From positions 434,001 through 498,000 of the forward strand of contig NZ_JAMQOQ010000003.1 of assembly GCF_031624635.1 (NCBI RefSeq): a DNA stretch of 64,000 nt, read 5' to 3'. The notes under the pieces are model-generated. The model was given only the letters and a program-made list of their open reading frames with translations. It was not told where the DNA came from and did no database searches. The translations under genes were made by a program, and so were the position numbers. Shown here piece after piece: positions 2,443 through 24,647 of the stretch. Within the stretch, counting starts at the first letter, position 1. Each line of letters opens with the position of its first letter. This DNA comes from Halogeometricum sp. S3BR5-2. Its GTDB lineage: Archaea; Halobacteriota; Halobacteria; Halobacteriales; Haloferacaceae.

Positions 2443-3186
2443 ATGTCACAACACGAACGAACCTGTCTGGTAACCGGCGCCTCGAGAGGCATCGGCCGAG
2501 GTATCGCCGAGCGACTCGCCCGCGAGGAGATGAACGTCGTGGTCAACTACTGCTCCTCGGAGACGGCGGCGTACGACGTCGTCGACGAGATAGAGGCGGC
2601 CGACGGAACCGCCGCCGCCATCCGAGCGGACGTCTCCGACCGAGAGGAGGTCCGGCGGATGTCCGAGCGAATCGACCGCACGTTCGGTCCGATCGACGTT
2701 CTGGTGAACAACGCGGGCGTCACCGCGGACCGGACCTTCGAGAAGATGACCCGCGAGGAGTGGGACCGGGTCGTCGACGTGAACCTCGGCGGCGTGTTCA
2801 ACTGTACGAAGGCGTTCTACGACGACGTCCGGCGCTCCGAGCAGGGACGGATCGTCAACATCTCCAGCGTCGTCGGCCAGCAGGGCAACTACGGCCAGTC
2901 GAACTACGCGACGACCAAGAGCGGCCTGTTCGGGTTCACCCGCACGCTCGCGCTGGAACTCGCGGACAGCGGAGCGACGGTCAACTGCGTCGCCCCGGGA
3001 TTCACCGAGACGGACATGCTCGCGCAGGTGAGCGACCGCGTCAGGGGGAAGATTCGCAAGCGAATCCCGCTCGACCGGTTCGCCGAAACCGACGACATCG
3101 CGGGGATGGTCGCCTTCCTCGCCGACGAGGAGTCGAGCTACATGACCGGGCAAGTCGTCGGAATCAACGGGGGGATGGAGTGGTGA
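2443..3186 (+). CDS. Acetoacetyl-CoA reductase / 3-oxoacyl reductase (SDR, PhaB-type)
   Basis: 247 residues, typical for PhaB/FabG. It shows the NAD(P) motif TGASRGIGRGIAERL near the N-terminus, the structural NNAG motif, and catalytic Ser (ISSVVGQQGNYG), Tyr and Lys (the YATTK motif), followed by the VNCVAPGF and GMEW-type C-terminal signatures of classical SDRs. The ATG at 2443 is chosen over an in-frame start 11 codons upstream because the conserved Rossmann strand begins directly after it (MSQHERTCLVTGASRGIG). In a PHA context the expected reaction is NADPH-dependent reduction of acetoacetyl-CoA to (R)-3-hydroxybutyryl-CoA. FabG-like activity on other 3-oxoacyl thioesters cannot be excluded. 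Confidence 0.85.
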   Translation: MSQHERTCLVTGASRGIGRGIAERLAREEMNVVVNYCSSETAAYDVVDEIEAADGTAAAIRADVSDREEVRRMSERIDRTFGPIDVLVNNAGVTADRTFEKMTREEWDRVVDVNLGGVFNCTKAFYDDVRRSEQGRIVNISSVVGQQGNYGQSNYATTKSGLFGFTRTLALELADSGATVNCVAPGFTETDMLAQVSDRVRGKIRKRIPLDRFAETDDIAGMVAFLADEESSYMTGQVVGINGGMEW

Positions 3187-3277
3187 CGTTCGACCGCCCG
3201 TCCCCGGCGCGCGCGAGAACCGATGTCGCTCGAACCGCCCGAACGACGCGGTCCGCTCGACAGCCACCCGCAACCAC

Positions 3278-3538
3278 ATGACTGATCGAGACACCTCGTC
3301 CGAAACCCAGCGGACGGACGACGCGCCCCCTCGACGGGACCCGACTCTCCCGGCGGAGTTGCGGTCCGCCGAGACGAAACTCGTCTACCTCTACGTTCGC
3401 CAAACCGGCGGGTGTACCCCGGCGGAACTGTGCGAATCGCTCCAGTTGACGAAGCTCTCGGTGCTTCCCCTCCTCCGGTCGCTCCGGGAACGGGAACTTG
3501 TCCGGAGAGAGGCGGACCGGTACGTCCCCGACGACTGA
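3278..3538 (+). CDS. Small winged-helix DNA-binding protein
   Basis: 86 residues. The first 25 are charged and disordered, followed by a compact winged helix (AETKLVYLYVRQTGGCTPAE, then a LTKLSVLPLLRSLRERELV recognition helix and a RREADRYVPDD wing) of the MarR/TrmB type. It has no ligand or dimerisation domain, a common format in haloarchaea. It lies 91 bp downstream of the PhaB-type reductase and may be co-transcribed, making it a candidate local regulator of the PHA locus. That role is inferred from position alone. Confidence 0.75.
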   Translation: MTDRDTSSETQRTDDAPPRRDPTLPAELRSAETKLVYLYVRQTGGCTPAELCESLQLTKLSVLPLLRSLRERELVRREADRYVPDD

Positions 3539-3665
3539 ACGCTCCCGTATCGGCTCCTCTCTCGGCGTCTCAGCCGGTTCGACGATGCGTCTTTCCGAGG
3601 TCGAGCGGTGGGGGAGTCGACAGTACTGTTATGCCCGTCGACCGCGACCACTCCCCTGAAGCACG

Positions 3666-4928: not shown

Positions 4929-5372
4929 ATGGAGAACCTCCGCTGGACGGAGTTGAGCGTGGACGAGCGCAACGAACTGCTGTCTCGAGGGGGAATCGGG
5001 GCGCTCTCGTTCTCGACTCCTCTCGAAGAACCGCCGGTGCTGCTGCCCGTCTCGTACGGGTACGACGCGGACACGACCAGTTTCTACTTCCGGCTCGCGT
5101 TTCCGGCCGACAGTCGGAAGACCGATGCCGTCGACGGACCGGTAGCGTTCACCACCTACGCCGAGACCGACGCGGGGTGGCGGAGCGTCGTCGCACGGGG
5201 GCATCTCGAAGAGGTGACCGACATGCCGTACGAGTCCAGCGCCGTACAGGGTATGTGGGCGGTGCGAATCCCGATGGTGGACCTCTTCGACCGGCCCCCG
5301 GAGGACGTCGCGTTTCGCTACTTCCGGCTCCGACCGGATTCGCTGACCGGGCGGAAGGAGGTCCGCGGCTGA
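4929..5372 (+). CDS. Pyridoxamine 5'-phosphate oxidase-like FMN-binding protein
   Basis: 147 residues. It starts MENLRWTELSVDERNELLSR and has the split-barrel pattern of the haloarchaeal PPOX-like group: GGIGALSFST, PVLLPVSYGY, FYFRLAFPADSRKTDAV, VAFTTYAE, WRSVVARGHLEEV. Members bind FMN or related flavins/F420 and are annotated as pyridoxamine oxidase or nitroimidazole-resistance-like proteins; the substrate is not predictable. The start at 4929 is preferred over an in-frame ATG at 4881 because family conservation begins there and the upstream 16 codons look like leader. The inverted repeat at 4823-4844 lies in its promoter region, so it may be under specific control. Confidence 0.78.
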   Translation: MENLRWTELSVDERNELLSRGGIGALSFSTPLEEPPVLLPVSYGYDADTTSFYFRLAFPADSRKTDAVDGPVAFTTYAETDAGWRSVVARGHLEEVTDMPYESSAVQGMWAVRIPMVDLFDRPPEDVAFRYFRLRPDSLTGRKEVRG

Positions 5373-5702
5373 GCGGACGCCGCGCGGCACGGCTTCCTGT
5401 GAGTTAGCACTCGCTTCTACGCGGTTGTGCTGAGACCGACCTGGTCTGTGCGTACCTGCAACCGTCTCTCCGAATAGACGTCGACACGAACGGTCCGTCT
5501 CGCCTACTGTGGAACGTCCGAGTCGGTCGTTTTCTCCCGCTCGGAGAGCGCCTCGCCGACCTTTCTTTCGACCGAACGCGCGACGGTCCGCCGCGATACC
5601 TCTCCGCTATGGAACCGGTATCGTCCGCGGACGGCGCTCGTTGCGAGGACACCGCATCGCGGTTCGACGGGGGAGACGAGACGCTTCGTCCGTCTCTCGG
5701 CG
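5373..5702. other. Intergenic gap without a supported gene
   Basis: 330 bp between the FMN-binding protein and the convergent LURP-one gene. The open frames here are short, Arg/Ser-rich and unlike their neighbours. No clear promoter, repeat or RNA gene was seen. Confidence 0.5.
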
Positions 5703-6251
5703 TCAGATCGCGTCGATGGCCGCCGCAACGGCGAGGACGAACGCGTCGTCTTCCCCGGAGACCACCTCGACTCCGTAGGTGTCCCGAACGCGGAACCAGC
5801 GCTTCGACACCACGGCGACGGGCGTGCCCTGTCGCGCGATGGTGTACTCGTGGTCGACGACGTTACCCTGTACGTGTAACGGCGGTCCGTCCGCGACCGT
5901 GACCTCGAAGCGGTCTCGAAGCGGCGTCACGAGGGCCTTCTTGACGGTCGCGACGGTCCGCCCGTCCCGTTCGATCACCATCGTGTCCCTGGCTCGGAAA
6001 ACGCGCTCCTGAACGCGGTAGAGGAGGCGCCCGTCCGTGCTTCGGATTTGAATCGTGTTTCGCGCCCTGAGCGCCTTCCCGTCGACTTTGTACGCGGGCC
6101 TCCCGTCACCCGTCTCGATGACGAAGTCGTCCCCGAAAGCGATGAGTCGCTCGCGCATGCGGTACCGCGCTGGCGTCGACCGGGCGTCCGCTCCGCCCCT
6201 CCTGCGCTCCTTTCGCGCCTGTCGTCGCTCACGGCGTCTCGTCGGACTCAT
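5703..6251 (-). CDS. LURP-one-related / tubby-like C-terminal family protein
   Basis: 182 residues from ATG 6251. The first 35 residues are a highly basic Arg-rich stretch (MSPTRRRERRQARKERRRGG). The rest is a beta-rich repeat of ERLIAFGDDFVIETGDGRPA, YKVDGKALRARNTIQIR, LLYRVQERVFRARDTMVIER and similar, the 12-strand barrel pattern of LURP-one/scramblase-like proteins. Function in archaea is unknown; homologues may bind membranes or nucleic acid. Starting at the MRERLIAFG methionine would remove the basic leader, so the N-terminus is uncertain. A longer in-frame extension to 6446 lacks family similarity. Confidence 0.75.
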   Translation of the reverse strand: MSPTRRRERRQARKERRRGGADARSTPARYRMRERLIAFGDDFVIETGDGRPAYKVDGKALRARNTIQIRSTDGRLLYRVQERVFRARDTMVIERDGRTVATVKKALVTPLRDRFEVTVADGPPLHVQGNVVDHEYTIARQGTPVAVVSKRWFRVRDTYGVEVVSGEDDAFVLAVAAAIDAI

Positions 6252-6656
6252 CGCTCCGTCCCCGTCGGGTTCTTCCCGCGATTCGATTCGCCGACCGTGT
6301 CCGTCCGACTGTTCGATGTCATGTTTCTCGGCTCCCGTGACGCGGCCCGACCCCGAACCTCCGCGCTGACGCATCGCACGCGTTGCACGCGTCCGCCGGA
6401 GTGCGAGGGAGAGTCGGTCCGCGTCGTCGCGTCCGGCGTCGGTCAAGAACGCTCCCGGAGGGAAGTCGGAGTGCGGAGTCGTTCTCTCTCGCCCTCCGCT
6501 CTTCCGTACCGCTCCGACCGACCGCCGTACTCGACACGTAACTGTTCGACCGATTTCGTAATAATACTAGCCGTTGAGCGGGTCGTGCGGACGTCTCGCC
6601 GGGGCAACGTCGCGAATGCATCCCCTGCTCTCGTCCGCTCCGCGGGGGAGGCAGAA
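6252..6656. other. Intergenic gap with an AT-rich patch
   Basis: 405 bp between two minus-strand genes. An AT-rich patch (TTCGTAATAATACTAG) at about 6555-6570 could be a core promoter reading leftward, but it is 300 bp from the LURP-one start. No gene is supported. Confidence 0.4.
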
Positions 6657-7631
6657 TCAGCGGCTACCCGCGGAGACGGCGCAGCGAAAGCCCACGTGCG
6701 TCGTCGAGGTGTCGACGGGCTCAGGATACCGCGCGGCCGGCCGGTACCTGACGCAGTAGTTCGGGGCGCAGAGGTGCGACCCGCCCTTCAGCACTTTCCG
6801 GGGTATTCGACTCGGGTCTCTCCGGTCTATGCTCTCCTCTCTGGTGCCGCCGCGGGGGTTTTTGGGCGTGCAGCAGGCGGGCGTCTCGTCCCCGCCGTCG
6901 CGGGCGCGGAACCAGTCGTCGGTCCACTCCCAGACGTTGCCGATGGCGTCGTAGAGACCGCACCCGTTCGCCGGAAACGCGCCGACCGGCGACGTTCGAA
7001 CGTATCCGTCCGCTTCGGTGTTCTGCCAGGGGAACGTTCCCTGCCACGTGTTGGCCATCGGTTCCCCGTCCGGCATGAACTCGTCGCCCCACGCGAACTC
7101 CGCTCCCTCGAGTCCGCCGCGCGACGCTCGCTCGTGTTCGGCCTCCGTCGGCAGGCGCTTGCCGGCCCACTCGGCGTAGGCCTCGGCGTCCTCGTGCGCG
7201 ACGTGAACGACCGGATGGTCCGAGCGGTCCGAGACGTCGTCGCCGGGTCCGAGCGGCCGCCGCCAGTTCGCCCCCGGGACGTACTCCCACCAACCGCTCG
7301 GGTCGGTGAGAGCGACCGGTCCGTCGGGCGGCACGAACACGGCCGACCCGGGTACCAGCGCCTCCGGGTCCGCGCCCGGGTAGTTCTCCGGGTCGGGGTC
7401 CCGTTCGGCGAGCGTGACGTATCCGGTGTCCTCGACGAACTCGCGGAACGCCGCGTTCGTCACCGGCGTCCTGTCGACCCAGAACCCGTCGACTTCGACC
7501 CTCCGAGTCGGCCCCTCCTCGGGATAGTGGTCGTCCGAACCCATGGTGAAGGTCCCGCCGGGCACCCACACCACGTCGTCGTGCGGTGGGTCGGTCGGTG
7601 CGTCCGTCCGCGGTGAACTCTCGTGGCTCAT
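6657..7631 (-). CDS. Formylglycine-generating enzyme (SUMF1/FGE family sulfatase activator)
   Basis: 324 residues. It opens with VWVPGGTFTMGSDD and carries the FGE-sulfatase fold markers VTNAAFREFV, GKRLPTEAEHERASRG, FPWQNT, GLYDAIGNVWEWTDDW and GFRCA. The two catalytic copper-binding cysteines are present as C288-x4-C293 in GGSHLCAPNYCVRYRPAAR, separating true FGE from catalytically unrelated family members such as EgtB-like proteins. FGE oxidises the cysteine of a CxPxR sulfatase motif to formylglycine. The only visible client with that motif is the arylsulfatase at 12874-15195. No signal peptide is evident, so maturation probably occurs in the cytoplasm. Confidence 0.92.
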   Translation of the reverse strand: MSHESSPRTDAPTDPPHDDVVWVPGGTFTMGSDDHYPEEGPTRRVEVDGFWVDRTPVTNAAFREFVEDTGYVTLAERDPDPENYPGADPEALVPGSAVFVPPDGPVALTDPSGWWEYVPGANWRRPLGPGDDVSDRSDHPVVHVAHEDAEAYAEWAGKRLPTEAEHERASRGGLEGAEFAWGDEFMPDGEPMANTWQGTFPWQNTEADGYVRTSPVGAFPANGCGLYDAIGNVWEWTDDWFRARDGGDETPACCTPKNPRGGTREESIDRRDPSRIPRKVLKGGSHLCAPNYCVRYRPAARYPEPVDTSTTHVGFRCAVSAGSR

Positions 7632-7770: not shown

Positions 7771-7938
7771 CTAATCGAGTATTTCGATCCGTATCTCGTG
7801 GCGTTCGTCGGTTCGGTGGCCGCAGAACGGGCAGAACTCGTAGTAGTGAGCCCCCGATTTCGCGTTGTACCCCTCGGTCCGGTCGCACTGGATGCGGGTC
7901 TTCGCGCGCGGGGCGGTCGTCGATGCGTGTTTTGGCAT
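7771..7938 (-). CDS. Small CPxCG-type zinc-finger protein
   Basis: 55 residues from ATG 7938 (MPKHASTTAPRAKTRIQCDR...). A C-terminal CPFCGH motif plus a single Cys at residue 18 suggests one incomplete or intermolecular zinc site. Small proteins with one or two CPxCG motifs are abundant in haloarchaea and mostly uncharacterised. The tail HEIRIEILD is beta-like. It sits between the FGE gene and DUF389 gene on the same strand, with an AT-rich stretch (GTTTATATTCC) upstream as a plausible promoter. No specific role can be given. Confidence 0.65.
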   Translation of the reverse strand: MPKHASTTAPRAKTRIQCDRTEGYNAKSGAHYYEFCPFCGHRTDERHEIRIEILD

Positions 7939-8085
7939 ACCACGACTTCGTCGGTGGAGGGATACCACGTCGGTTACCGTCGGTAATTGCCTCTAATCGT
8001 GACATTCGCACGTGTTTATATTCCTACACCCTCAACTTTCGGTCCCGCTCTCGCGTCGGTATCCCCGCGATGCGGCCGTCTACCG

Positions 8086-9459
8086 TCACGTCGGCGCGCC
8101 GCGGGCGTAGTCGCGGCTCGTCGGTTCGCCGCTCGCGGGCGCCTGCCCTCCGAACGGCGGGGTCGGGTCCTCCCGCTCCGACACCTGCGTTTCGATGAAG
8201 CCGACGCGGACGACCACGTCCCGACCCAGCCGTTCGGTCAAATCGTCGTCGAACCGCTGAGCCAGGTCCGGCGGAGCCTCCAAATCGCGCGGAATCCCGA
8301 CCAAGACGTCCACCTGCGGTTCGTTCCCGAGCAGTATGTCGACGGGTTCGTAGTCGACGCCGACGCTGACGAGTTCGACGCCCCCGACGTCCGCTTCGTC
8401 GAACACCTCCCGGAGTTCCGCCTCGGTCTGTTGCTCGAACGACTGCGTCTGGAACGTCGTCCAGGTGACGCCGCCGAGTACGATGGAGAGGACGGCGATG
8501 GCGACGGCGATGACGACGACGCGGGAGAACACTGACGCCCGGACTCCCTCGAACGTCCCCGCCTCCAGCGGCTTGAACCCGGACAGATAGAAGAGGATGA
8601 GCGCCGAGAGGTTGATGGCGAGGAGGTTCACGAGGACGAGGATGGCGGCCGCGACGGCGACGCCGGGGAGTCCGAAGGCGATTCCCAGCCCCGACGTCGC
8701 CGCCGGGGGAACGAGTGCGACGGCGATGGCGACGCCGACCAGCGTCGACCCCGACCCGCGCATGATGCTGATGGACCCGGCGAGCCCCGACCCGAGCGCC
8801 AGAAACAGCGACAGGAAGTTCGGCCCCGTCCGCTCTGCGACCTGTGGAATCGTCCGGATGTCGAGTCCGGGAGCGATGAGGATGGTCTGCTGCATCAGCC
8901 ACCCCATGATCGCCGCGGTCGCGATGGCGGCGAGCAGGCCCGTCACCTGAAGCTTGACCCCCCGAGACGCCATTTTCGGCTCGTCGAGGACGGTTCCGAC
9001 GCTGGCGGAGATGGCCGGTCCCATCAGCGGGGCGACGACCATGGCCCCGATGATAGTCGCCGCCGAGTCGAGCAGGAGTCCCGTGGTCGCGATGATCGTA
9101 CTCAAAATCAGGAAGGCGAAGAAGGTGGAGTTCGCGGGCGCGAGGTCCTGCGCCCGAGCGTACAGTTCCTCGCGGGAGATGCGGAGACCGGGGAATCGCT
9201 CGACCAGGGCGGAGAGACGCTCCGACACCACCGTCTCCGTCGGGAGCACGATAGTGTAGGCGTCGTCGCGAACGCCCGCCGCCGTCAGTCGCTCCAGCAC
9301 CGTCTCGACGCCGCTCGGGGGCACGGGAAACTGGACCATCGCCTCGAAATCTCCGCGTCCGACCTCCTCGAAAACGGCGTAGTCGATACCCTGCTCGTCG
9401 AGGGCCGCGAGCACGCTGTCTCGGGTACCCTCGGGTATCAGCACCTGTACGAGACGCAT
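8086..9459 (-). CDS. DUF389 (TIGR00341-type) membrane protein
   Basis: 457 residues from ATG 9459. An N-terminal soluble alpha/beta domain (MRLVQVLIPEGTRDSVLAAL, residues 1-95) precedes about six transmembrane helices including STIIATTGLLLDSAATIIGA, MVVAPLMGPAISASVGTVL and VGVAIAVALVPPAATSGLGI, the signature DUF389 segments. The C-terminal 120 residues are acidic and extend beyond the membrane domain. The family is of unknown function. The start is fixed by the conserved N-terminal strand; upstream in-frame sequence is antisense-like. Confidence 0.87.
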   Translation of the reverse strand: MRLVQVLIPEGTRDSVLAALDEQGIDYAVFEEVGRGDFEAMVQFPVPPSGVETVLERLTAAGVRDDAYTIVLPTETVVSERLSALVERFPGLRISREELYARAQDLAPANSTFFAFLILSTIIATTGLLLDSAATIIGAMVVAPLMGPAISASVGTVLDEPKMASRGVKLQVTGLLAAIATAAIMGWLMQQTILIAPGLDIRTIPQVAERTGPNFLSLFLALGSGLAGSISIMRGSGSTLVGVAIAVALVPPAATSGLGIAFGLPGVAVAAAILVLVNLLAINLSALILFYLSGFKPLEAGTFEGVRASVFSRVVVIAVAIAVLSIVLGGVTWTTFQTQSFEQQTEAELREVFDEADVGGVELVSVGVDYEPVDILLGNEPQVDVLVGIPRDLEAPPDLAQRFDDDLTERLGRDVVVRVGFIETQVSEREDPTPPFGGQAPASGEPTSRDYARGAPT

Positions 9460-9620
9460 AGGGCGGAATACAACACACGAGAATATAAATCGTGAGCGTC
9501 GACCGATGGGAGCGCCCTCGCCGCATCGGTCGCTCTGCCCCCCGTCACGCCCGCCGTCCGCCGGGTCGGACGACCTTCGATCGACCGACACCGACCGGTG
9601 CGACTTTCGGCCGTGAACGT

Positions 9621-9632: not shown

Positions 9633-9680
9633 AAAAATGATTAAGGTAGTGACGGTCGTTCGAGGGGACGAGGTGTACGA

Positions 9681-10178
9681 ATGAGCTCACTGGTAGTACT
9701 CGCGTTCGAGACCAAGGACGGTGCAGAGGAGATGCGAGAGCGGATGTACGACTTCCAGCGGCGGGAACTCGTCACACTCGACGACGCCGCGGTCGTCGTC
9801 AGGAAGGAGAACGGTCACGTGAAGGTGAAGCAGGCGCACAGTCTCGTCGGCGCCGGGGCCCTCGGCGGAGCGTTCTGGGGTCTCCTCATCGGCGTCATCT
9901 TCTGGATGCCGTGGCTCGGAATCGCCATCGGGAGCGTTACCGGCGCGTTGGGTGGGAAGTTCACCGACGTCGGCATCGACGACGACTTCATCGAGGAGGT
10001 CGGCGAGACGGTCGAACCCGGCCAGTCCGCGCTGTTCCTCCTGGCCCGGGACGCGAACGTAGAGCGCATTCGGGAGGAGCTATCGGACGTCGAGTTCGAG
10101 ATAATCGAGACCAACCTCTCTCCGGAGGAGGAGACGAGACTGCGCGAGGCCTTCGCCGCCGAGGAAGTCGCCGGGTGA
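9681..10178 (+). CDS. DUF1269 family membrane-associated protein (paralogue 1)
   Basis: 165 residues. It starts MSSLVVLAFETKDGAEEMRE and contains a glycine-rich hydrophobic pair (GALGGAFWGLLIGVIFWMPW, then LGIAIGSVTGALGGK), giving one or two membrane-associated helices between acidic ends. The family is of unknown function and common in halophiles. A near-duplicate lies at 16842-17339 with matching length and most residues conserved. It precedes the HdeD-like gene by 121 bp on the same strand, so co-transcription is possible; the palindrome at 9621-9632 may control it. Confidence 0.85.
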   Translation: MSSLVVLAFETKDGAEEMRERMYDFQRRELVTLDDAAVVVRKENGHVKVKQAHSLVGAGALGGAFWGLLIGVIFWMPWLGIAIGSVTGALGGKFTDVGIDDDFIEEVGETVEPGQSALFLLARDANVERIREELSDVEFEIIETNLSPEEETRLREAFAAEEVAG

Positions 10179-10299
10179 GCGTCCGGCGCCGACGGCGCGA
10201 CGGAGGTGTTCGGCCCGCCGCATCTCTTCGCCCGGGAGACTTTCGCGAGAGGCGTACTGGCACTTTATGCTCTGTTCGGTCGAATTACGTACTGTAACC

Positions 10300-11078: not shown

Positions 11079-12395
11079 ATGACCGAAGAACCCGAGAACG
11101 CCCCGTCGAAAGCACCCCCGCCGGAGGACTCCTCGGTGTGGCGAATCGCCACGACGGTGGAGCGGGGCCCTCTCGACCGGGAACGCGTGACGCTCTGGGG
11201 GGTCGCCATCGCACTCCTCCTCGCCCTCCTCTACGTCGGGTGGCGATACGTCGGAACCGTCGTCATGGGTCTCTTCGTCTACTACGTCGCACGCCCCGTG
11301 TTCCGGCGAATCAACGCGCGCCTCGCGAGCCGAACGCTCGCCGTCGGTGCGACGCTGTTGGCGGTCGCCCTCCCGCTGCTCGTCGTCGTCGGGTGGGCGT
11401 TCGCTATCCTCGCCAACGCGCTGGGCGACCTCCTCGACTCGGACGCGCTCGCGGAGGCCGAAGCGTTCATCCAGCCGTACGTCGGCCTGGTCGCGGAGCT
11501 GGAGACGTTCGCCGACGAGGTACTGACGGATCCGAGCCGGCTGACGGACCTCGAACTCGGACCCCTCCTCAACGACGCGGTGGGGTCGCTGCTCGCGTGG
11601 GCGGGGGTGGCGTTCAACGTCGGTATCCACGGCTTCATCGTCCTCATCATCGTCTTCTATCTGCTCCGGGACGACTACCGCATCGCCCGCTGGGCGCGGA
11701 ACACGTTCGTCGAGGAGGACGGCGTCTTGGAGTCGTATCTCACGACCGTCGACCACGACCTCCACAACGTCTACTTCGGGAACATCCTGAACGCGCTCAT
11801 GACCGGCCTGCTCGCGGCGGTGGTGTACACCGTTCTCAACCTGTTCGCACCGACGGCCACCCGAATTCCCGAGGCGGCCTTCCTCGGACTGCTCGTCGGC
11901 GTGGCGAGCCTCGTCCCGGTTATCGGCATCAAACTCGTCACGTGGCCGGTCGGCGCCTACCTCCTCGGACGCGCGCTCTGGCTGGCTCCCGAGGCGGTGT
12001 GGTTCCCCGTGGTGTTCCTCCTCGTCTCGTTCGTCGTCGTGGACTACATTCCGGACCAACTGCTCCGGCCGTACGTCAGCGGCCGGACACTCCACGTGGG
12101 GGCGGTGATGCTCGCGTACACCCTCGGTCCGCTGCTGTTCGGGTGGTACGGTATCTTCCTGGCGCCGCTGCTGTTCGTCGTCATCTTCGAGTTCGGCCGC
12201 ATCGTGTTCCCGTGGCTGCTCGCTCCGGACCCCCACGCGTCGTTCTCGGACCGGACCGAGGGCCCGCCGGAGTCGGGGGCGGAGACGGACGAGGAACGGC
12301 CGGTCGACGCGACCGGAGACGACCGTCCCGCCGGCGTTGACGACCGGCGGTTCCCCGACTCGACCGAGAGCGCGGACCCGGCCGGCGGGGAGTAG
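11079..12395 (+). CDS. AI-2E family (PerM-like) transporter
   Basis: 438 residues from ATG 11079. About eight transmembrane helices follow the AI-2E layout: a cluster of N-terminal helices, a soluble segment near residues 125-170, then FNVGIHGFIVLIIVFYLLRD and a C-terminal group ending HVGAVMLAYTLGPLLFGWYG. The last 65 residues are an acidic, Pro/Asp-rich tail presumably in the cytoplasm. Members export autoinducer-2 or act as Na+/H+ antiporters; substrate here is unknown. ATG 11018 is also in frame and gives a 20-residue extension after an AAGATTATG box. Confidence 0.82.
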   Translation: MTEEPENAPSKAPPPEDSSVWRIATTVERGPLDRERVTLWGVAIALLLALLYVGWRYVGTVVMGLFVYYVARPVFRRINARLASRTLAVGATLLAVALPLLVVVGWAFAILANALGDLLDSDALAEAEAFIQPYVGLVAELETFADEVLTDPSRLTDLELGPLLNDAVGSLLAWAGVAFNVGIHGFIVLIIVFYLLRDDYRIARWARNTFVEEDGVLESYLTTVDHDLHNVYFGNILNALMTGLLAAVVYTVLNLFAPTATRIPEAAFLGLLVGVASLVPVIGIKLVTWPVGAYLLGRALWLAPEAVWFPVVFLLVSFVVVDYIPDQLLRPYVSGRTLHVGAVMLAYTLGPLLFGWYGIFLAPLLFVVIFEFGRIVFPWLLAPDPHASFSDRTEGPPESGAETDEERPVDATGDDRPAGVDDRRFPDSTESADPAGGE

Positions 12396-16506: not shown

Positions 16507-16841
16507 AACTGGAGCGCAGTTACGACGGCCGCCGGGTCGGTCCCCGACGACGAGTCGTCCGAACTCGGGCGACGGACTGACTAGCGTACCCTGCGAGTGT
16601 CCACGTCGCGGGCGCTCGGGTTTGTTATTCGTCTCCATCTCGGAGGCCGCCGCTCCGAATCCGAGCGCCGGGCGGCGGGACATCCGAGCACCCGGCGTCG
16701 TGATTCACCGTCCGACTGTATCCGAGTCCGGGAACTCCGCACATATCGTACATTACACCGCACACTCTTCTCTCCCGAGCCACTCTCCACGGGAAAAGGA
16801 AGAGAATTACAATGTACGTGTCTGGCCGTATACGCGACCGT
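16507..16841. other. Divergent intergenic region
   Basis: 335 bp between the minus-strand membrane protein and the plus-strand DUF1269 gene. An A-rich patch (AAAAGGAAGAGAATTACAAT) ends about 29 bp before 16842 and may contain its promoter. No gene was found. Confidence 0.4.
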
Positions 16842-17339
16842 ATGAGTTCATTGATCGTACTCGCGTTCGAAGACGAGACGGGCGCCGAAGAGATGCGCGA
16901 GCGGATGCACGACCTCCAGAAGCGCCAACTGATCACGCTTCAGGACGCCGCCGTGGCCGTCCGCAAGGAGAACGGCCACGTGAAGGTGAAGCAAGCCCAC
17001 AGCCTCGTCGGCGCGGGCGCACTCGGCGGGTCGTTCTGGGGGTTGCTCATCGGCGTCATCTTCTGGATGCCGTGGCTCGGCATGGCGATCGGCGCCGCGA
17101 CGGGCGCGCTCTCGGGGAAACTGTCCGACACCGGCATCGACGACGACTTCATCGAGGAGGTCGCCGACACCGTCGAACCGGGAACGTCGGCGCTGTTCCT
17201 CCTCGCGAGCGACGCCCGACTCGAACGCATCGAGGAGGAACTCGAAGGCACGCAGTTCACCATCCTCCAGACGAACCTCTCGCCCGAGGACGAGACCAAC
17301 CTCCGGGAGACCTTCGCCGCCGAGGAAATCACGGGATAG
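16842..17339 (+). CDS. DUF1269 family membrane-associated protein (paralogue 2)
   Basis: 165 residues from ATG 16842 (MSSLIVLAFEDETGAEEMRE). It matches the paralogue at 9681-10178 throughout, including ENGHVKVKQAHSLVGAGALG, FWGLLIGVIFWMPWLG and the acidic C-terminal segment ending in FAAEE. The conserved N-terminus fixes the start ten codons after an in-frame ATG at 16812. It lies 56 bp before the SulP gene and may be its operon partner. The shared glycine-rich membrane hairpin suggests a small membrane-associated accessory protein; function unknown. Confidence 0.87.
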   Translation: MSSLIVLAFEDETGAEEMRERMHDLQKRQLITLQDAAVAVRKENGHVKVKQAHSLVGAGALGGSFWGLLIGVIFWMPWLGMAIGAATGALSGKLSDTGIDDDFIEEVADTVEPGTSALFLLASDARLERIEEELEGTQFTILQTNLSPEDETNLRETFAAEEITG

Positions 17340-17395
17340 ACGTCCCGCGACGAGTCGCCGCCGATCGGTGATGCATTCCCTCGTCGATTCAGACC

Positions 17396-19846: not shown

Positions 19847-20668
19847 TCATTCCCCGGCCTCCGACGCGTCGCCCCGCGACCCGGTCCGCTTCCCCAGTTC
19901 TCCGCCGAGGGGCAGCAGGACGACCAGCATCAGCGTGGCGCCGACGACCAGAGCGGCCGAGACGTTGCGCTGAGCCGTTCCGAGGCCCATCGCGGACCGG
20001 TCTTCGGCGGCCGACCCTCCCAGGACCCACCCGAGCGCGAACGAACCGACGACGAACGCGAGCAGGGCGGCTATCGCGCCCGTTCCGATCACATCCAGGA
20101 CGGTCTGGTAGTTCAACACCAACATCAGCACGACCAGGAGAACCAGCGCCGTGCTGGCGGCCTGATTCACCGCCGGCTGAATCGAATCGGCCGTCTCTTC
20201 GTAGCGGGCTTTCACGACCAGTCCGATGGCGAGCGGAGTGAGCATCAGGACGACGAGCGAACTCGCGATGTCGAGCGGGTCGACCCGGACGCCCGGCAGC
20301 AACGCTGGGAGCACGACCGGAACGTAGGCGACGGTGACGACCATCAACAGGACCATCAGCCCGACGCCGAACGCGAGGTTTCCCTTCGCGGCCTCTACCA
20401 GTTTCGGGAGGAACGGCGCCCCGGCCGCGGTCGCCAGCAGTATCAGCCCGACGGACTGCGCCTCCGAGAGCGGGACGACCAGAAGGATGACGTACGCCAG
20501 TAGCGGTACGAGCGCGGAGTTCGCGAGGAGCGCCACCGCGACCCGGCGACGGTTTCGCAGCGGTTCGAGAATCTGCGCGACCGTCAGTGCGAGCCCCATC
20601 CCGAACATGCTCGACACGACGAAGACAAGCACCGACAGCCTCGCGAGAGATTCGAGTACTACGGCCAT
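19847..20668 (-). CDS. Bile acid:sodium symporter (BASS/ArsB-type) family transporter
   Basis: 273 residues from ATG 20668 (MAVVLESLARLSVLVFVVSS). Eight to ten hydrophobic helices with family features MFGMGLALTVAQILEPLRNR, ANSALVPLLAYVILLVVPLS and the conserved GLGTAQRNVSAALVV near the C-terminus. The substrate could be an organic anion; BASS proteins carry bile acids, pyruvate or pantoate. Upstream methionines at 20704 and 20737 add a basic leader and run into the IS5 terminus region. The truncated IS5 element begins 49 bp upstream of the start and may have displaced the native promoter. Confidence 0.85.
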   Translation of the reverse strand: MAVVLESLARLSVLVFVVSSMFGMGLALTVAQILEPLRNRRRVAVALLANSALVPLLAYVILLVVPLSEAQSVGLILLATAAGAPFLPKLVEAAKGNLAFGVGLMVLLMVVTVAYVPVVLPALLPGVRVDPLDIASSLVVLMLTPLAIGLVVKARYEETADSIQPAVNQAASTALVLLVVLMLVLNYQTVLDVIGTGAIAALLAFVVGSFALGWVLGGSAAEDRSAMGLGTAQRNVSAALVVGATLMLVVLLPLGGELGKRTGSRGDASEAGE

Positions 20669-20716: not shown

Positions 20717-21322
20717 GGCTCTGTTGAAATCCTCCAAGGGTTACAGGTTCGCCTCGTAATTCGACGAGATGAACGCCCTCCCGAAGTCGCAGATTCTCCG
20801 GTTTACTGAGAAGGCGATCCATCTGGCCCGCCGAGCCGTTTCTCGATACTCCTCGAAGTTCTCCAAACACCGTTATACACTCCCGCAGCACGTTGTTCTG
20901 CTCTGTCTCAAAGTTCGGAAGAACACGACCTACCGTGGCCTGCTTGACGAACTGATCGAGATGCCACGCATCCGTCGCGCTCTTGGATTAGCTGAACTTC
21001 CTACGCCATCAACGCTCTGTAAGGCGTTCAATCGACTGGATATGGCCGTGTGGCGTATCATATTGACTCTCTCAGCGACCCTACTTCCGACGAGCGGAGT
21101 TGTTGGTGTTGATGCGTCAGGGTTTGACCGCAGTCACGCTTCGAAACACTACACGAAACGAGCCGAACTCACGATCCAACAGCTCAAGGTGACGTTGCTG
21201 GTCGATGCGAAGGTAAACGCGATTCTCGATTTACACGTGACGACGACTCGGAAACACGATAGCCAGATTGCTCCGTCGTTGATCAAGCGCAATCCTGAGG
21301 ATATTGACATTCTGCTCGGTGA
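20717..21322 (+). mobile_element. Truncated IS5-family element
   Basis: The left end appears to start at GGCTCTGTTGAAAT (20717), which resembles terminal repeats of haloarchaeal IS5 elements. The transposase frame starts 52 bp inside. The element stops exactly where the IS6-family element's terminal repeat begins at 21323, and no matching IS5 right half is found beyond the IS6 element, so the remainder has been lost rather than merely interrupted. Confidence 0.75.
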
Positions 21323-21338
21323 GGCACTGTCTAGTTAA
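20769..21338 (+). pseudogene. IS5-family transposase, C-terminally truncated
   Basis: 189 codons remain, the last few reading into the IS6 terminal repeat. The N-terminal helical domain (LPKSQILRFTEKAIHLARRA ...) is followed by the first catalytic region SGVVGVDASGFDRSHASKHY, containing the DDE Asp, and LKVTLLVDAKVNAILDLHVT. The second Asp and the Glu of the DDE triad are missing, so the protein cannot be an active transposase. GC content is lower than in flanking genes, as usual for haloarchaeal IS elements. Confidence 0.85.
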
Positions 21339-21780
21339 CCTCTTCAGCCGGCGTTCGTCCATTGAGCGCTTGATGCGGTCGTTGAACGTTATAGTAATGA
21401 GCGAACAGTGCAAGCCACTGGCGGACGCTCAGCCGACTGCCCACCCACGAATTATGGAAGCGGTCAACTCGCATTTTGAGGGTGTGAAACCACTTTTCGA
21501 TCAGATTTCGGTCCGTATAGTCGACCCGACCGCTCAGCCCTAATCGAGAGAGTGCAGTCCGATAACCGAATTGATCGACCAGAAACACCGTGTCTTCGCA
21601 ATTGTGTTTCTCGACGACTCCGTGAAGGAACGCAGCCGCCGGATCGGTTCCATGTCTTTTGAACAGCTGTACGTCGAGAAGTAACTTGGTGTCGATGTCT
21701 ATTGCAGCGTACAACCAAGACCACTCGCCATTGATTTTGACAGCGGTTTCGTCGACGGCGACCCGCGACGGCTGCGCCGT

Positions 21781-21836
21781 CACGAGAACGCGACGCGTTC
21801 TGGTTGGCTGCACGAGAGCGAAGCTCTCGTGAACGT
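21781..21836. repeat. Hairpin array 2 (two palindromes) inserted in the IS6 transposase
   Basis: The insert 21781-21833 is flanked by CGT on both sides (21778-21780 and 21834-21836). It holds a 7-bp stem with 3-nt loop at 21785-21801 (arms AGAACGC/GCGTTCT) and a 9-bp stem with GAA loop at 21811-21831 (arms CACGAGAGC/GCTCTCGTG). Hairpin centres are 28 bp apart. The net gain of 56 bp destroys the reading frame. Confidence 0.8.
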
Positions 21837-21989
21837 CGGCGGGTCCGAGACGCTGTCAGCCAGTCGATGAACCCACTGGAAAATTGCCTGAAACGAGCGA
21901 TCTACGCCGATCAAGTGCAGAATTGCCTCTGTTTCTCTGAGCGAGAGACCGGCAGCGTGGAGACGGACGGCGAACGCCCTGACGGGCGT

Positions 21990-22103
21990 CCCCAGAACCC
22001 TTCGGGTTCTGGTGTGCGAACGAGACGTGAAGCGTCTCGTCAACGTTCGAAAGACGCGATGCGTCTTTCGGGCCCACAAACTCGCTTCGCGAGTTTGGGA
22101 CGT
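21990..22103. repeat. Hairpin array 1 (four palindromes) inserted in the IS6 transposase
   Basis: The insert 21990-22100 is flanked by CGT (21987-21989 and 22101-22103). It contains four perfect hairpins with unrelated stems: 21992-22012 (CCAGAACCC, TTC loop), 22020-22040 (ACGAGACG, 5-nt loop), 22048-22070 (CGAAAGACGC, GAT loop) and 22077-22097 (CAAACTCGC, TTC loop). Centres are 28, 29 and 28 bp apart. The net gain of 114 bp is exactly 38 codons. Confidence 0.85.
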
Positions 22104-22238
22104 CGCCGTCCGCTCCTGCTGCCAACATTCAAGCGTAGCCGTGTCTAAACTCTGTCTGAGCAGGTCTGAGAGTGGCATGAAACACTAGCTCTTCGACCTG
22201 CTCGCTCCTTAACTAGACAGTGCCACAGTCCGGTTCCT

Positions 22239-22270
22239 ATCAAATATATTATTATACTATAGTTGTGTTT
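22239..22270 (+). promoter_or_regulatory. AT-rich core promoter upstream of the unknown gene pair
   Basis: The sequence between the IS6 right end and GTG 22276 is almost pure A/T (containing AATATATTATTATACTATAG). It places a TATA box 25-35 bp before the start codon, which suits a leaderless transcript. Confidence 0.6.
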
Positions 22271-22275
22271 ATTAC

Positions 22276-23373
22276 GTGGTGGCATTAACCGCGGGACAGG
22301 ATCTGTACGCCTCAGTCGGCGAGGAGGGAATCAATCGATTCGTTCGACATCTGTTCCGCCAGCGCCCCTCACTGTTCACCTTCGCAACGCCGGGCATCGC
22401 CGCGTACGCGGACGAGTTTCTCGACCCGGCGGTTCCGTTGTCGGACGCACAGGTCGCACGGGGCCAGCCTCGCGTCAGCGAACTGTCGGGGATCCCCGTG
22501 CCCGGGACAGACGGCCCCGTCGAACTGGAGTACTGCGTGCAGCTGACGGCTTTCGAGTTCGACTTCCACCCCGGCGACGAGTTCGAGCTCCCCGTGGGTA
22601 GAGAGCTGGAGGCACAGCAGTTCGGCGTGCACGTGGCGTTCGCCGTGGGGCTCGGCTGTCCAAAGGACGCTGCCCCAGATTTTAGACGCCGGATCCGTGA
22701 CCGGTCGATCTTCGAGGGAAACGTTCTGAGTGTCCTCCAGTCCCGAGGAGGCGAAACGCCCCCCGGTCAACGGTCGGTTGACCACGGGGAGGCCATGGAC
22801 GGATTGACGGGCGGACGCCCGCTTGCTGACGGCGGCCGAGCATCGGGGTCGACGTCGGTAGCGCAGTTCGGTTCCCTCCCCGCCGGACCGGGGCGGGACC
22901 GGTTCGTCGGCGGCGATCAGCGAGTCCTCGCCCCGCCGGACGTGGAGTTGATCAGGAAGCCGGACGTCACGATGCACCGCTTCGAGCTGCACGCGTTCCT
23001 CGTCGGCGGTGTCGACATCGGAACCGACGGGGACGAGAACGGAAACAGGGACGCGTTCGCGTTCGAACTTGACCACCTCGAACTCGGCGGGGGAGACGAC
23101 GGCTCGGCGATCGACCTTCCGACCGGCCTGAAGAACAGCATCGAGTGCTACGTCGACCTTTACGTCAGGCACGTCGTCCTGCCGAGCGTCTCGGAGATGA
23201 GCCAGAGCACTGTTGCGAGCGTCCTCGACAACGACCTCCTGAAGACGGAGCTCACGCCGGAGGACCCGACGGCCCGCTTCCCGGAGACGGATGCGATTCC
23301 CGACAATCCGAACCTCGCGGACGACCGGCTCGAAGTGTATGTCGACCTCAACATCACGGGAGACGGACAGTGA
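22276..23373 (+). CDS. Unrecognised protein A of a two-gene unit
   Basis: 365 residues with a GTG start at 22276 placed just after an AT-rich promoter. I do not recognise the family. The N-terminus (MVALTAGQDLYASVGEEGIN) includes RFVRHLFRQRPSLFTFATP. There are amphipathic beta-like stretches (VELEYCVQLTAFEFDFHPGD, FGVHVAFAVGLGC, HRFELHAFLVGGVDIG, SIECYVDLYVRHVVLPSVSE) and a Gly/Asp-rich low-complexity centre (residues 150-215). There is no signal peptide or membrane helix. Alternating hydrophobic strands with two long amphipathic regions are reminiscent of lipid-binding barrel proteins, but that is speculation. Its stop codon overlaps the next gene by 4 bp. Confidence 0.65.
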   Translation: MVALTAGQDLYASVGEEGINRFVRHLFRQRPSLFTFATPGIAAYADEFLDPAVPLSDAQVARGQPRVSELSGIPVPGTDGPVELEYCVQLTAFEFDFHPGDEFELPVGRELEAQQFGVHVAFAVGLGCPKDAAPDFRRRIRDRSIFEGNVLSVLQSRGGETPPGQRSVDHGEAMDGLTGGRPLADGGRASGSTSVAQFGSLPAGPGRDRFVGGDQRVLAPPDVELIRKPDVTMHRFELHAFLVGGVDIGTDGDENGNRDAFAFELDHLELGGGDDGSAIDLPTGLKNSIECYVDLYVRHVVLPSVSEMSQSTVASVLDNDLLKTELTPEDPTARFPETDAIPDNPNLADDRLEVYVDLNITGDGQ

Positions 23374-23750
23374 GCCAGCTGACCGTCGCCGTCTCGGAGG
23401 ACGGCCTGAACGAACAGCTGCAGGCTGTCCAAGAGAACGTCGCCGTCGGGATCGAGGGGACGTTCGGGGAGGGCGGGTTCGAGGTAGCGTACGAACTGGG
23501 CGTCAGACTGGAGGAGGGGACCGTCGAGCTCCGACCCGACCGGTTCGACCTGGACGAACTCGATGTCGTCTACGACCCGGTGCGCTTCGAGGTCCGGTTT
23601 GATATCCCGGAGCTGTGTACCCCGTTCGTCTGCATCCCCGGCTTCCTGGGCCTCGACGAGACGTGCCTCCCCCAGATATGCTTGTTCGAGACCGACTCGG
23701 AGTTAGGGCCCCTCGTCGCGAACGCCAATCGGTTCGGATCCCATAACTAA
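23370..23750 (+). CDS. Unrecognised protein B of a two-gene unit
   Basis: 126 residues with GTG at 23370, overlapping the stop of protein A (GTGA), a strong sign of translational coupling. It starts VSQLTVAVSEDGLNEQLQAV and consists of alternating amphipathic strands (VAVGIEGTFGEGGFEVAYEL, GVRLEEGTVELRPDRFDLDE). A Cys-rich C-terminal stretch follows: C at about residues 85, 89, 99 and 103 (PELCTPFVCIPGFLG, LDETCLPQICLFET). The strand pattern resembles that of protein A, as if both were one fold family. Paired cysteines could bind metal or form disulfides. No known domain is recognised. Confidence 0.6.
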   Translation: MSQLTVAVSEDGLNEQLQAVQENVAVGIEGTFGEGGFEVAYELGVRLEEGTVELRPDRFDLDELDVVYDPVRFEVRFDIPELCTPFVCIPGFLGLDETCLPQICLFETDSELGPLVANANRFGSHN

Positions 23751-24647
23751 TCAAGGGCGGTTATCGGAGTGGCCGCCAATCAGGACCGTCGCGACGAACT
23801 GGCCCGCTATCGTAATCAAGCTCGACTGCGATCCGAAGATAGGTGCAGGCGAGACAGTTATTTTCGGGTGCGAATAACGAGAAGTATCTGCGCTGGGGTC
23901 GCTTATCTACTTCTGAGGAGTACCCCCCACGTCTATCCCCCCGATACGCCCCTCACTCTTCCTGTTGGCTGGTTCTGCAGTAGATTGTCGGCCCGGGTCG
24001 CGGTGGCTACTGCCCTGGAGAAGACGCACGTCGACTGTTCGGACCCTCCCGAATCCTGTGGCGGGATTCGCGAACCCGCGGCGATGATGGTTGCCGCCGA
24101 CGAGCAGGGCTGTTGGTGAACTGTCGGTGAGTATCTTGACCGTCTCGACAGCGGTGTCGCGACCAAACGCATCGTCTCCCTCGACGACCAACTTGGAATC
24201 GACCTCCCGACCCGAGAGGCACTCGCCGAATCGTTCACTAGCGGCTACTCCCTCTCGATCCCACGCGTCCCGAAAAGGGGGCCACCGACAGTGCGTACCG
24301 CTCCCGGATCAACGTCGGGCCGGCGATGCTCAAGTCAACGGAGTCCCAAGCTAGATCGAGGTTACTACCCCTCTCAAGAAATTAGATCCCGTGAAAAGTG
24401 GTGTGTTAGACACGCCGACGCTCCCCGATTCGCCGGTAGGTTTAACCAACAATAGAGTCGGGAAGTTAACCAACAACGGGTAGGCGCGACGCCCCTGACG
24501 ACCCGGAAGCCCGACGTGAGGAGCTACCTCCCTAAAACGGAATCGAGTCTCACGACTACCTGAGCGACTGGCAGAGAATCAACGACGTGAGCGAAGGATC
24601 GAAGCCACCGTGCGAACGTTGATTGCCTCAGCAGTTCACATAGGATC
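23751..24647. other. Decayed intergenic stretch in the IS island
   Basis: 897 bp with no convincing gene. The minus strand around 23950-24260 reads, without a proper start, through VVEGDDAFGRDTAVETVKIL and SSPTALLVGGNHHRRGFANP, which looks like a degraded nucleotide-binding Usp-like domain; this is weak. Two 11-bp direct repeats TTAACCAACAA lie at 24442-24452 and 24466-24476. Confidence 0.35.
24442..24476. repeat. Two 11-bp direct repeats TTAACCAACAA
   Basis: Copies at 24442-24452 and 24466-24476 are spaced 24 bp start to start, a little over two helical turns, about 170 bp upstream of the gene at 24648. Tandem half-sites like this can serve as operators; no regulator is known for them. Confidence 0.35.

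Follow-up and report, generated by a model that had tools for sequence, protein, structure and literature searches.

Among the closest described systems, DUF4403 (PF14356) is a bacterial full-length BPI-like TULIP (Levine 2019, PMC6791001), and P47 and OrfX2 (PF06597) are TULIP proteins of toxin clusters, which are multi-gene prokaryotic clusters (PMC7020563). A text search of an open-access library turned up no publication on archaeal TULIP proteins. Here, we analysed a stretch of 64,000 nucleotides from Halogeometricum sp. S3BR5-2 (the window), in which an earlier note had described a translationally coupled pair of unrecognised genes directly behind an insertion element. We conclude that this feature is almost certainly a deletion-damaged copy of a translationally coupled three-gene operon, A-B-C, and that the best structural lead for the A and B proteins is a lipid-binding (TULIP) fold. 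Taken jointly, the broken operon and a TULIP lipid-binding mechanism come to slightly less than an even chance. What had been a puzzling gene pair thereby becomes a defined and conserved unit of three genes, intact copies of which are open to study; the feature in the window is itself degraded, and the interest rests in the family behind it.

Gene A and the region upstream

Gene A is intact in the window and lies on the forward strand at 22276..23373. Its open reading frame, from 22276 to 23373, comprises 365 codons. The second GTG (22279) aligns with the ATG start of both intact close relatives, one on a plasmid and one in Halogeometricum pallidum, a species of the same genus, and is probably the true start, from which the frame stays open over 364 codons. 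The window gene has a copy 96% identical on contig C7 of the same genome and one 95% identical in H. pallidum; homologues occur across genera and phyla, with identities of 28-35% in other genera. These distant homologues, together with a dN/dS of 0.16 for the plasmid copy versus that of H. pallidum, both intact and closely related, identify gene A as real and not a chance reading frame.

The AT-rich, promoter-like stretch that had been described 5' of A is indeed present as the TATA-like TATATTATTATACTA at 22245-22259, ~20-34 nt upstream of the gene, and both the plasmid copy and that of H. pallidum retain it. The whole region from 22226 to 22278 (forward strand) is kept in both (from L008 8803 on in the plasmid, from L009 8959 on in H. 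pallidum). Directly upstream, also in agreement with the earlier reading, lies an IS6-type insertion element (21324..22225, reverse strand; Pfam DDE_Tnp_IS240) with the terminal inverted repeats GGCACTGTCTAGTTAA / TTAACTAGACAGTGCC, which ends at 22225, ~51 bp 5' of gene A, and stands in place of the ancestral upstream flank of A. A related IS6-type copy is found on the plasmid (L021 6558-7347). The window element measures 903 bp as compared to 790 bp for the plasmid copy, contains hairpin-rich extra sequence at ~21990-22110 and has its transposase split into two frames. It disrupts an IS5-like transposase gene on its left (20769-21338) and shows no matching target duplication on its right. Elsewhere in the window, two direct copies of ~515 bp with 77% identity lie at 9678-10192 and 16839-17353, the second overlapping a 175-aa ORF (16812-17339).

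The intact operon and the deletion in the window

In H. pallidum, whose loci L009 and L012 are one and the same DNA, gene A is followed by B (311 aa) and then C (390 aa), each gene overlapping the next by GTGA. Another copy resides in the Halogeometricum genome itself, on contig C7 of 153,153 bases, with A near the end of the contig and the rest of B together with C at its start. Since the two ends of C7 overlap by 104 identical bases, we read the contig as a circle of ~153 kb. Reading through this joint yields a plasmid B protein of 311 aa with a single amino-acid change compared to H. pallidum; the two B genes differ by 20 synonymous and 1 nonsynonymous changes (dN/dS 0.016).

Comparison with these copies revealed the origin of the second gene of the supposed pair. 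The overlap by GTGA stands as described (A to 23373, ORF 2 from 23370), and ORF 2 (23370-23750, 126 aa) does contain four cysteines, at residues 83, 88, 99 and 104, which fall within the N-terminal region of B. ORF 2 is, however, a deletion product made of the start of B and the tail of C, i.e., 109 B residues and 17 C residues in frame. The 5' part of gene B (23370..23695, forward strand, 109 of 311 codons) matches L009 10104-10430 of H. pallidum and, across the C7 joint, the plasmid copy, with the shared base C at 23696 completing B codon 109. The final 17 codons of gene C and its stop follow at 23697..23750 (forward strand), in frame with the B remnant, and this tail reads SELGPLVANANRFG in C of both H. 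pallidum and the plasmid copy. At the junction (23695..23696) 1,724 bp are gone, comprising the 3' part of B and the 5' part of C. Window 23695|23696 corresponds to L021 223|1948 in the plasmid copy and to L009 10430|12154 in H. pallidum: the window is 95% identical up to L009 10430, and the alignment resumes at 12154, within the final 17 codons of C. The deletion ends share about one base and no repeat. Downstream, the region 3' of gene C (23751..23860, forward strand) is common with H. pallidum (L009 to 12318), the identity over 23696-23860 being 92.7%. The deletion jump joined the B frame by chance to the C frame and thereby gave rise to the 126-aa open frame. ORF 2 is not a natural protein but a truncated B fused to the C tail, and it illustrates how a deletion can yield a convincing yet false small gene. 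A general metal or disulfide role for the four cysteines was considered and rejected, as the fused homologue L038 is without them.

An assembly artefact may in principle lie behind the apparent deletion; the junction is located within a long contig and without a repeat. We consider it highly improbable that A and ORF 2 form a working two-gene unit with a functional 126-aa second protein. In its favour, the fused frame remains open with the GTGA coupling preserved, but the break lies inside B and inside C, both of which are intact in all other complete loci, and the fused B-C frame exists nowhere else among the loci found. On the window branch, 12 codons of A changed synonymously and 12 nonsynonymously, among them a start codon altered from ATG to GTG, L75P and I308S; constraint is relaxed, yet drift is not free. 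That A alone is still in use in this strain would agree with its 364 open codons, with the conserved upstream region and with 12 nonsynonymous changes being fewer than neutral drift would predict beside 12 synonymous ones. We nevertheless regard this as unlikely, given that the deletion may be recent, that the start codon and residues 75 and 308 have changed as described, and that the plasmid carries an intact A. With most of B and C missing, the window copy is probably no longer functional, with the plasmid copy doing the job.

From 24405 on, window and H. pallidum sequences run colinear (94% over 4.5 kb), which identifies the window locus as corresponding to the operon of H. pallidum. That species also carries an isolated C tail (L009 5089-5434) with an ArdC-like gene behind it, and the same ArdC-like gene flanks the plasmid operon, the matching plasmid region being L021 1755-3463. 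Each species therefore seems to have retained one of two loci intact, with reciprocal loss of one operon copy in the two species. The window also has a segment of 544 bp (23861-24404) that the colinear site of H. pallidum lacks; the beginning of this segment resembles plasmid sequence 3' of C.

Distribution of A-B-C

Three consecutive intact genes are found in the plasmid copy and in L009, L010, L011, L013 and L036; in the window copy, A is whole while B and C are truncated and fused. L010 and L011 derive from two further haloarchaeal genomes, and L036 (reverse strand; A to 9556, B 8639-9556, C 7890-8642) from a single genome belonging to a second class of the same phylum. L013 belongs to the bacterium Agaribacillus aureus (Bacteroidota; A 1174-1971, B 1976-2887, C 2912-3643), where the module is followed at 5027-7268 by a fusion protein of C39-peptidase-like and VKOR parts and then by a second C39-type protein. 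Three genomes of this same second class encode A and B as a single fused chain of 547-623 aa, with one of these chains ending early at an IS5-like transposase gene; a C gene was sought in the three genomes and not found. The unit is rare: gene A was seen in 4 of 391 genomes from the class to which the window belongs and in 5 of 238 of the second class, and gene B in 1 of 395 Bacteroidota. A weak B-like match with stops was seen in genome G206. Relatives of A-B-C were sought in viral contigs, phages and plasmids, and none was found.

A adjoins B in every intact locus read, and their fusion in some genomes suggests that the two proteins work as a single unit. The expectation that the pair is kept together therefore held, with the two genes adjacent in intact loci and fused in three archaeal genomes; the idea of a two-gene unit did not, as the intact form has three genes. 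In L011 (6141-14581), the operon has an Orc1/Cdc6 gene on one side and a ParA gene on the other, a plasmid- or megaplasmid-like setting. Being patchy, plasmid-linked and common to archaea and one bacterium, the unit is probably mobile, in line with the transfer that had been proposed, and its distribution suggests horizontal spread. No recurring neighbour genes of A-B loci were observed, except an SBF-type (sodium/bile acid symporter family) transporter gene, which lies near the window locus (19847-20662) and in L037 (9681-10661), 0.6 kb 3' of the fused A-B. This is perhaps a coincidence.

Neither protein of the window pair belongs to a named family, as the earlier note had stated: the window ORFs gave no family match in Pfam, NCBIfam or PHROGs. 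Searches of A, B and C against Pfam, NCBIfam and PDB sequences returned sub-threshold chance matches, apart from a helix-hairpin-helix (HHH_5) tail in the Halogeometricum C protein, which scored just below the cutoff. A-B-C is a previously unrecognised operon. By hydropathy, neither a signal peptide nor a clear membrane helix was detected in any copy, which leaves the suggestion of a secreted pair without a basis. A as a paralogue of B was also rejected, as the similarity of their N-terminal motifs lies within the range of shuffled sequences.

A-B-C could instead be a plasmid-spread conflict system for antagonism or defence, in which lipid binding would at most be a means, as for P47/OrfX. Its rare, patchy and plasmid-linked occurrence in archaea and a bacterium would fit, as would the presence of the TULIPs P47 and OrfX2 in toxin clusters (PMC7020563). 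We find this quite unlikely, as no toxin, immunity or defence gene recurs beside A-B-C, nine A, B and C proteins gave no match to known anti-phage defence systems in a PADLOC search up to E = 1, and the proteins show no signal peptide by hydropathy.

Structural leads for A, B and C

Structure prediction and structural search, both named in the earlier note as ways to check the pair, were run for A and B on the Agaribacillus proteins, to which rows from H. pallidum and the window were added, giving three usable sequences per alignment. The A and B models reached pLDDT values of 34 and 35 and pTM values of 0.33 and 0.24, respectively. The A model (pLDDT 34) consists of long strands followed by a 34-residue helix. 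Its best 12 rows in Foldseek were all TULIP-superfamily members, at this same pLDDT of 34, and so were the best 17 rows in VIA-align, with Z scores of 8.4 to 6.1, where unrelated models reach Z 6-8. The neighbours include SPLUNC1, BPIFA1, LBP, Der p 7, YceB, BPI, CETP and Mdm12, and further down the list P47 (Z 5.8) and OrfX2 (Z 5.3). The structural matches of the B model (pLDDT 35) were incoherent and pointed to no consistent fold. In profile comparison, B residues 3-72 aligned to the C-terminal half of DUF4403 with a score of 27.8, the highest of 240 column shuffles being 23.6; column shuffling is a lenient control, and several profile comparisons were tried. A gave no match in the corresponding alignment to DUF4403, and by sequence neither A nor B matched any TULIP family in Pfam or PDB. 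The TULIP guess of the earlier note thus gains modest support from the A-model matches and the B-DUF4403 alignment, set against the lack of a family match by sequence. These are two weak, independent lines that together offer a lead, not a proof, and we place a BPI-like lipid-binding TULIP pair of A and B just below even probability.

C residues 86-146 aligned to halocyanins with a score of 25.8, as compared to a maximum of 20.3 in 200 shuffles, again a lenient control. The alignment spans most of the domain, including the FDS..L and PG.Y motifs. C had no match to a Pfam cupredoxin family above the cutoff, and when the copper ligands His, Cys, His and Met were sought at the aligned positions of five C proteins, the Cys-His-Met set was absent. 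C may thus contain a cupredoxin-like domain without copper ligands.

In the mechanism we propose, A and B would each form a TULIP-type domain, and the two would meet head to head as the two halves do in BPI or DUF4403. The resulting tube would hold a lipid or another hydrophobic molecule, presumably in the cytosol, and C would be a beta-sandwich partner of A-B whose cupredoxin-like domain has lost its former copper ligands. We tentatively describe A-B-C as a mobile archaeal and bacterial module, in which two TULIPs form a BPI-like heterodimer (sometimes fused) for cytosolic lipid carriage with a copper-free cupredoxin-like partner; this full description has a real chance of being correct, if a lesser one than the TULIP pair taken by itself. 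An alternative of the same standing as the full description is that A-B-C is real and A and B act jointly, but as another beta-rich complex with C, e.g., structural or carbohydrate-binding, and not as TULIPs. The lack of a confident fold for A and B, the lack of a sequence link to any TULIP family and the beta-sandwich-like character of C speak for such a complex, while the uniform TULIP list of the A model and the B-DUF4403 alignment speak against it. Should A and B be TULIPs, archaea would also possess BPI-type lipid-carrying tubes, which have been described in eukaryotes and bacteria, and a BPI-like heterodimer module would extend TULIP lipid carriers to this domain. Archaeal membrane lipids are chemically different from those of eukaryotes and bacteria.

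Comparison with described systems

Halocyanins (cupredoxins, PF00127) resemble C in that the aligned residues 86-146 cover most of their domain, but C is without the Cys-His-Met copper ligands and without a Pfam match above the cutoff. P47 and OrfX2 share with A-B-C an organisation in multi-gene clusters and are matched by the low-confidence A model; A-B-C differs in having no Pfam match and no toxin genes beside it in the loci read. The solved structures of BPI, LBP, SPLUNC1, Der p 7 and YceB are the top matches of the A model, with Z scores of 7-8.4 over 111-130 residues at ~10% identity to A and from a model of very low confidence; these proteins are mostly secreted or periplasmic, whereas A has no signal peptide. 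DUF4403 differs from A-B-C in that the latter usually comprises two separate genes plus a third, has no Pfam match, leaves A unaligned and is without a signal peptide. However, the C-terminal half of DUF4403 aligns with B residues 3-72, and DUF4403 is built from two TULIP halves, the arrangement that we propose both for the A and B pair and for the fused A-B chains of 547-623 aa.
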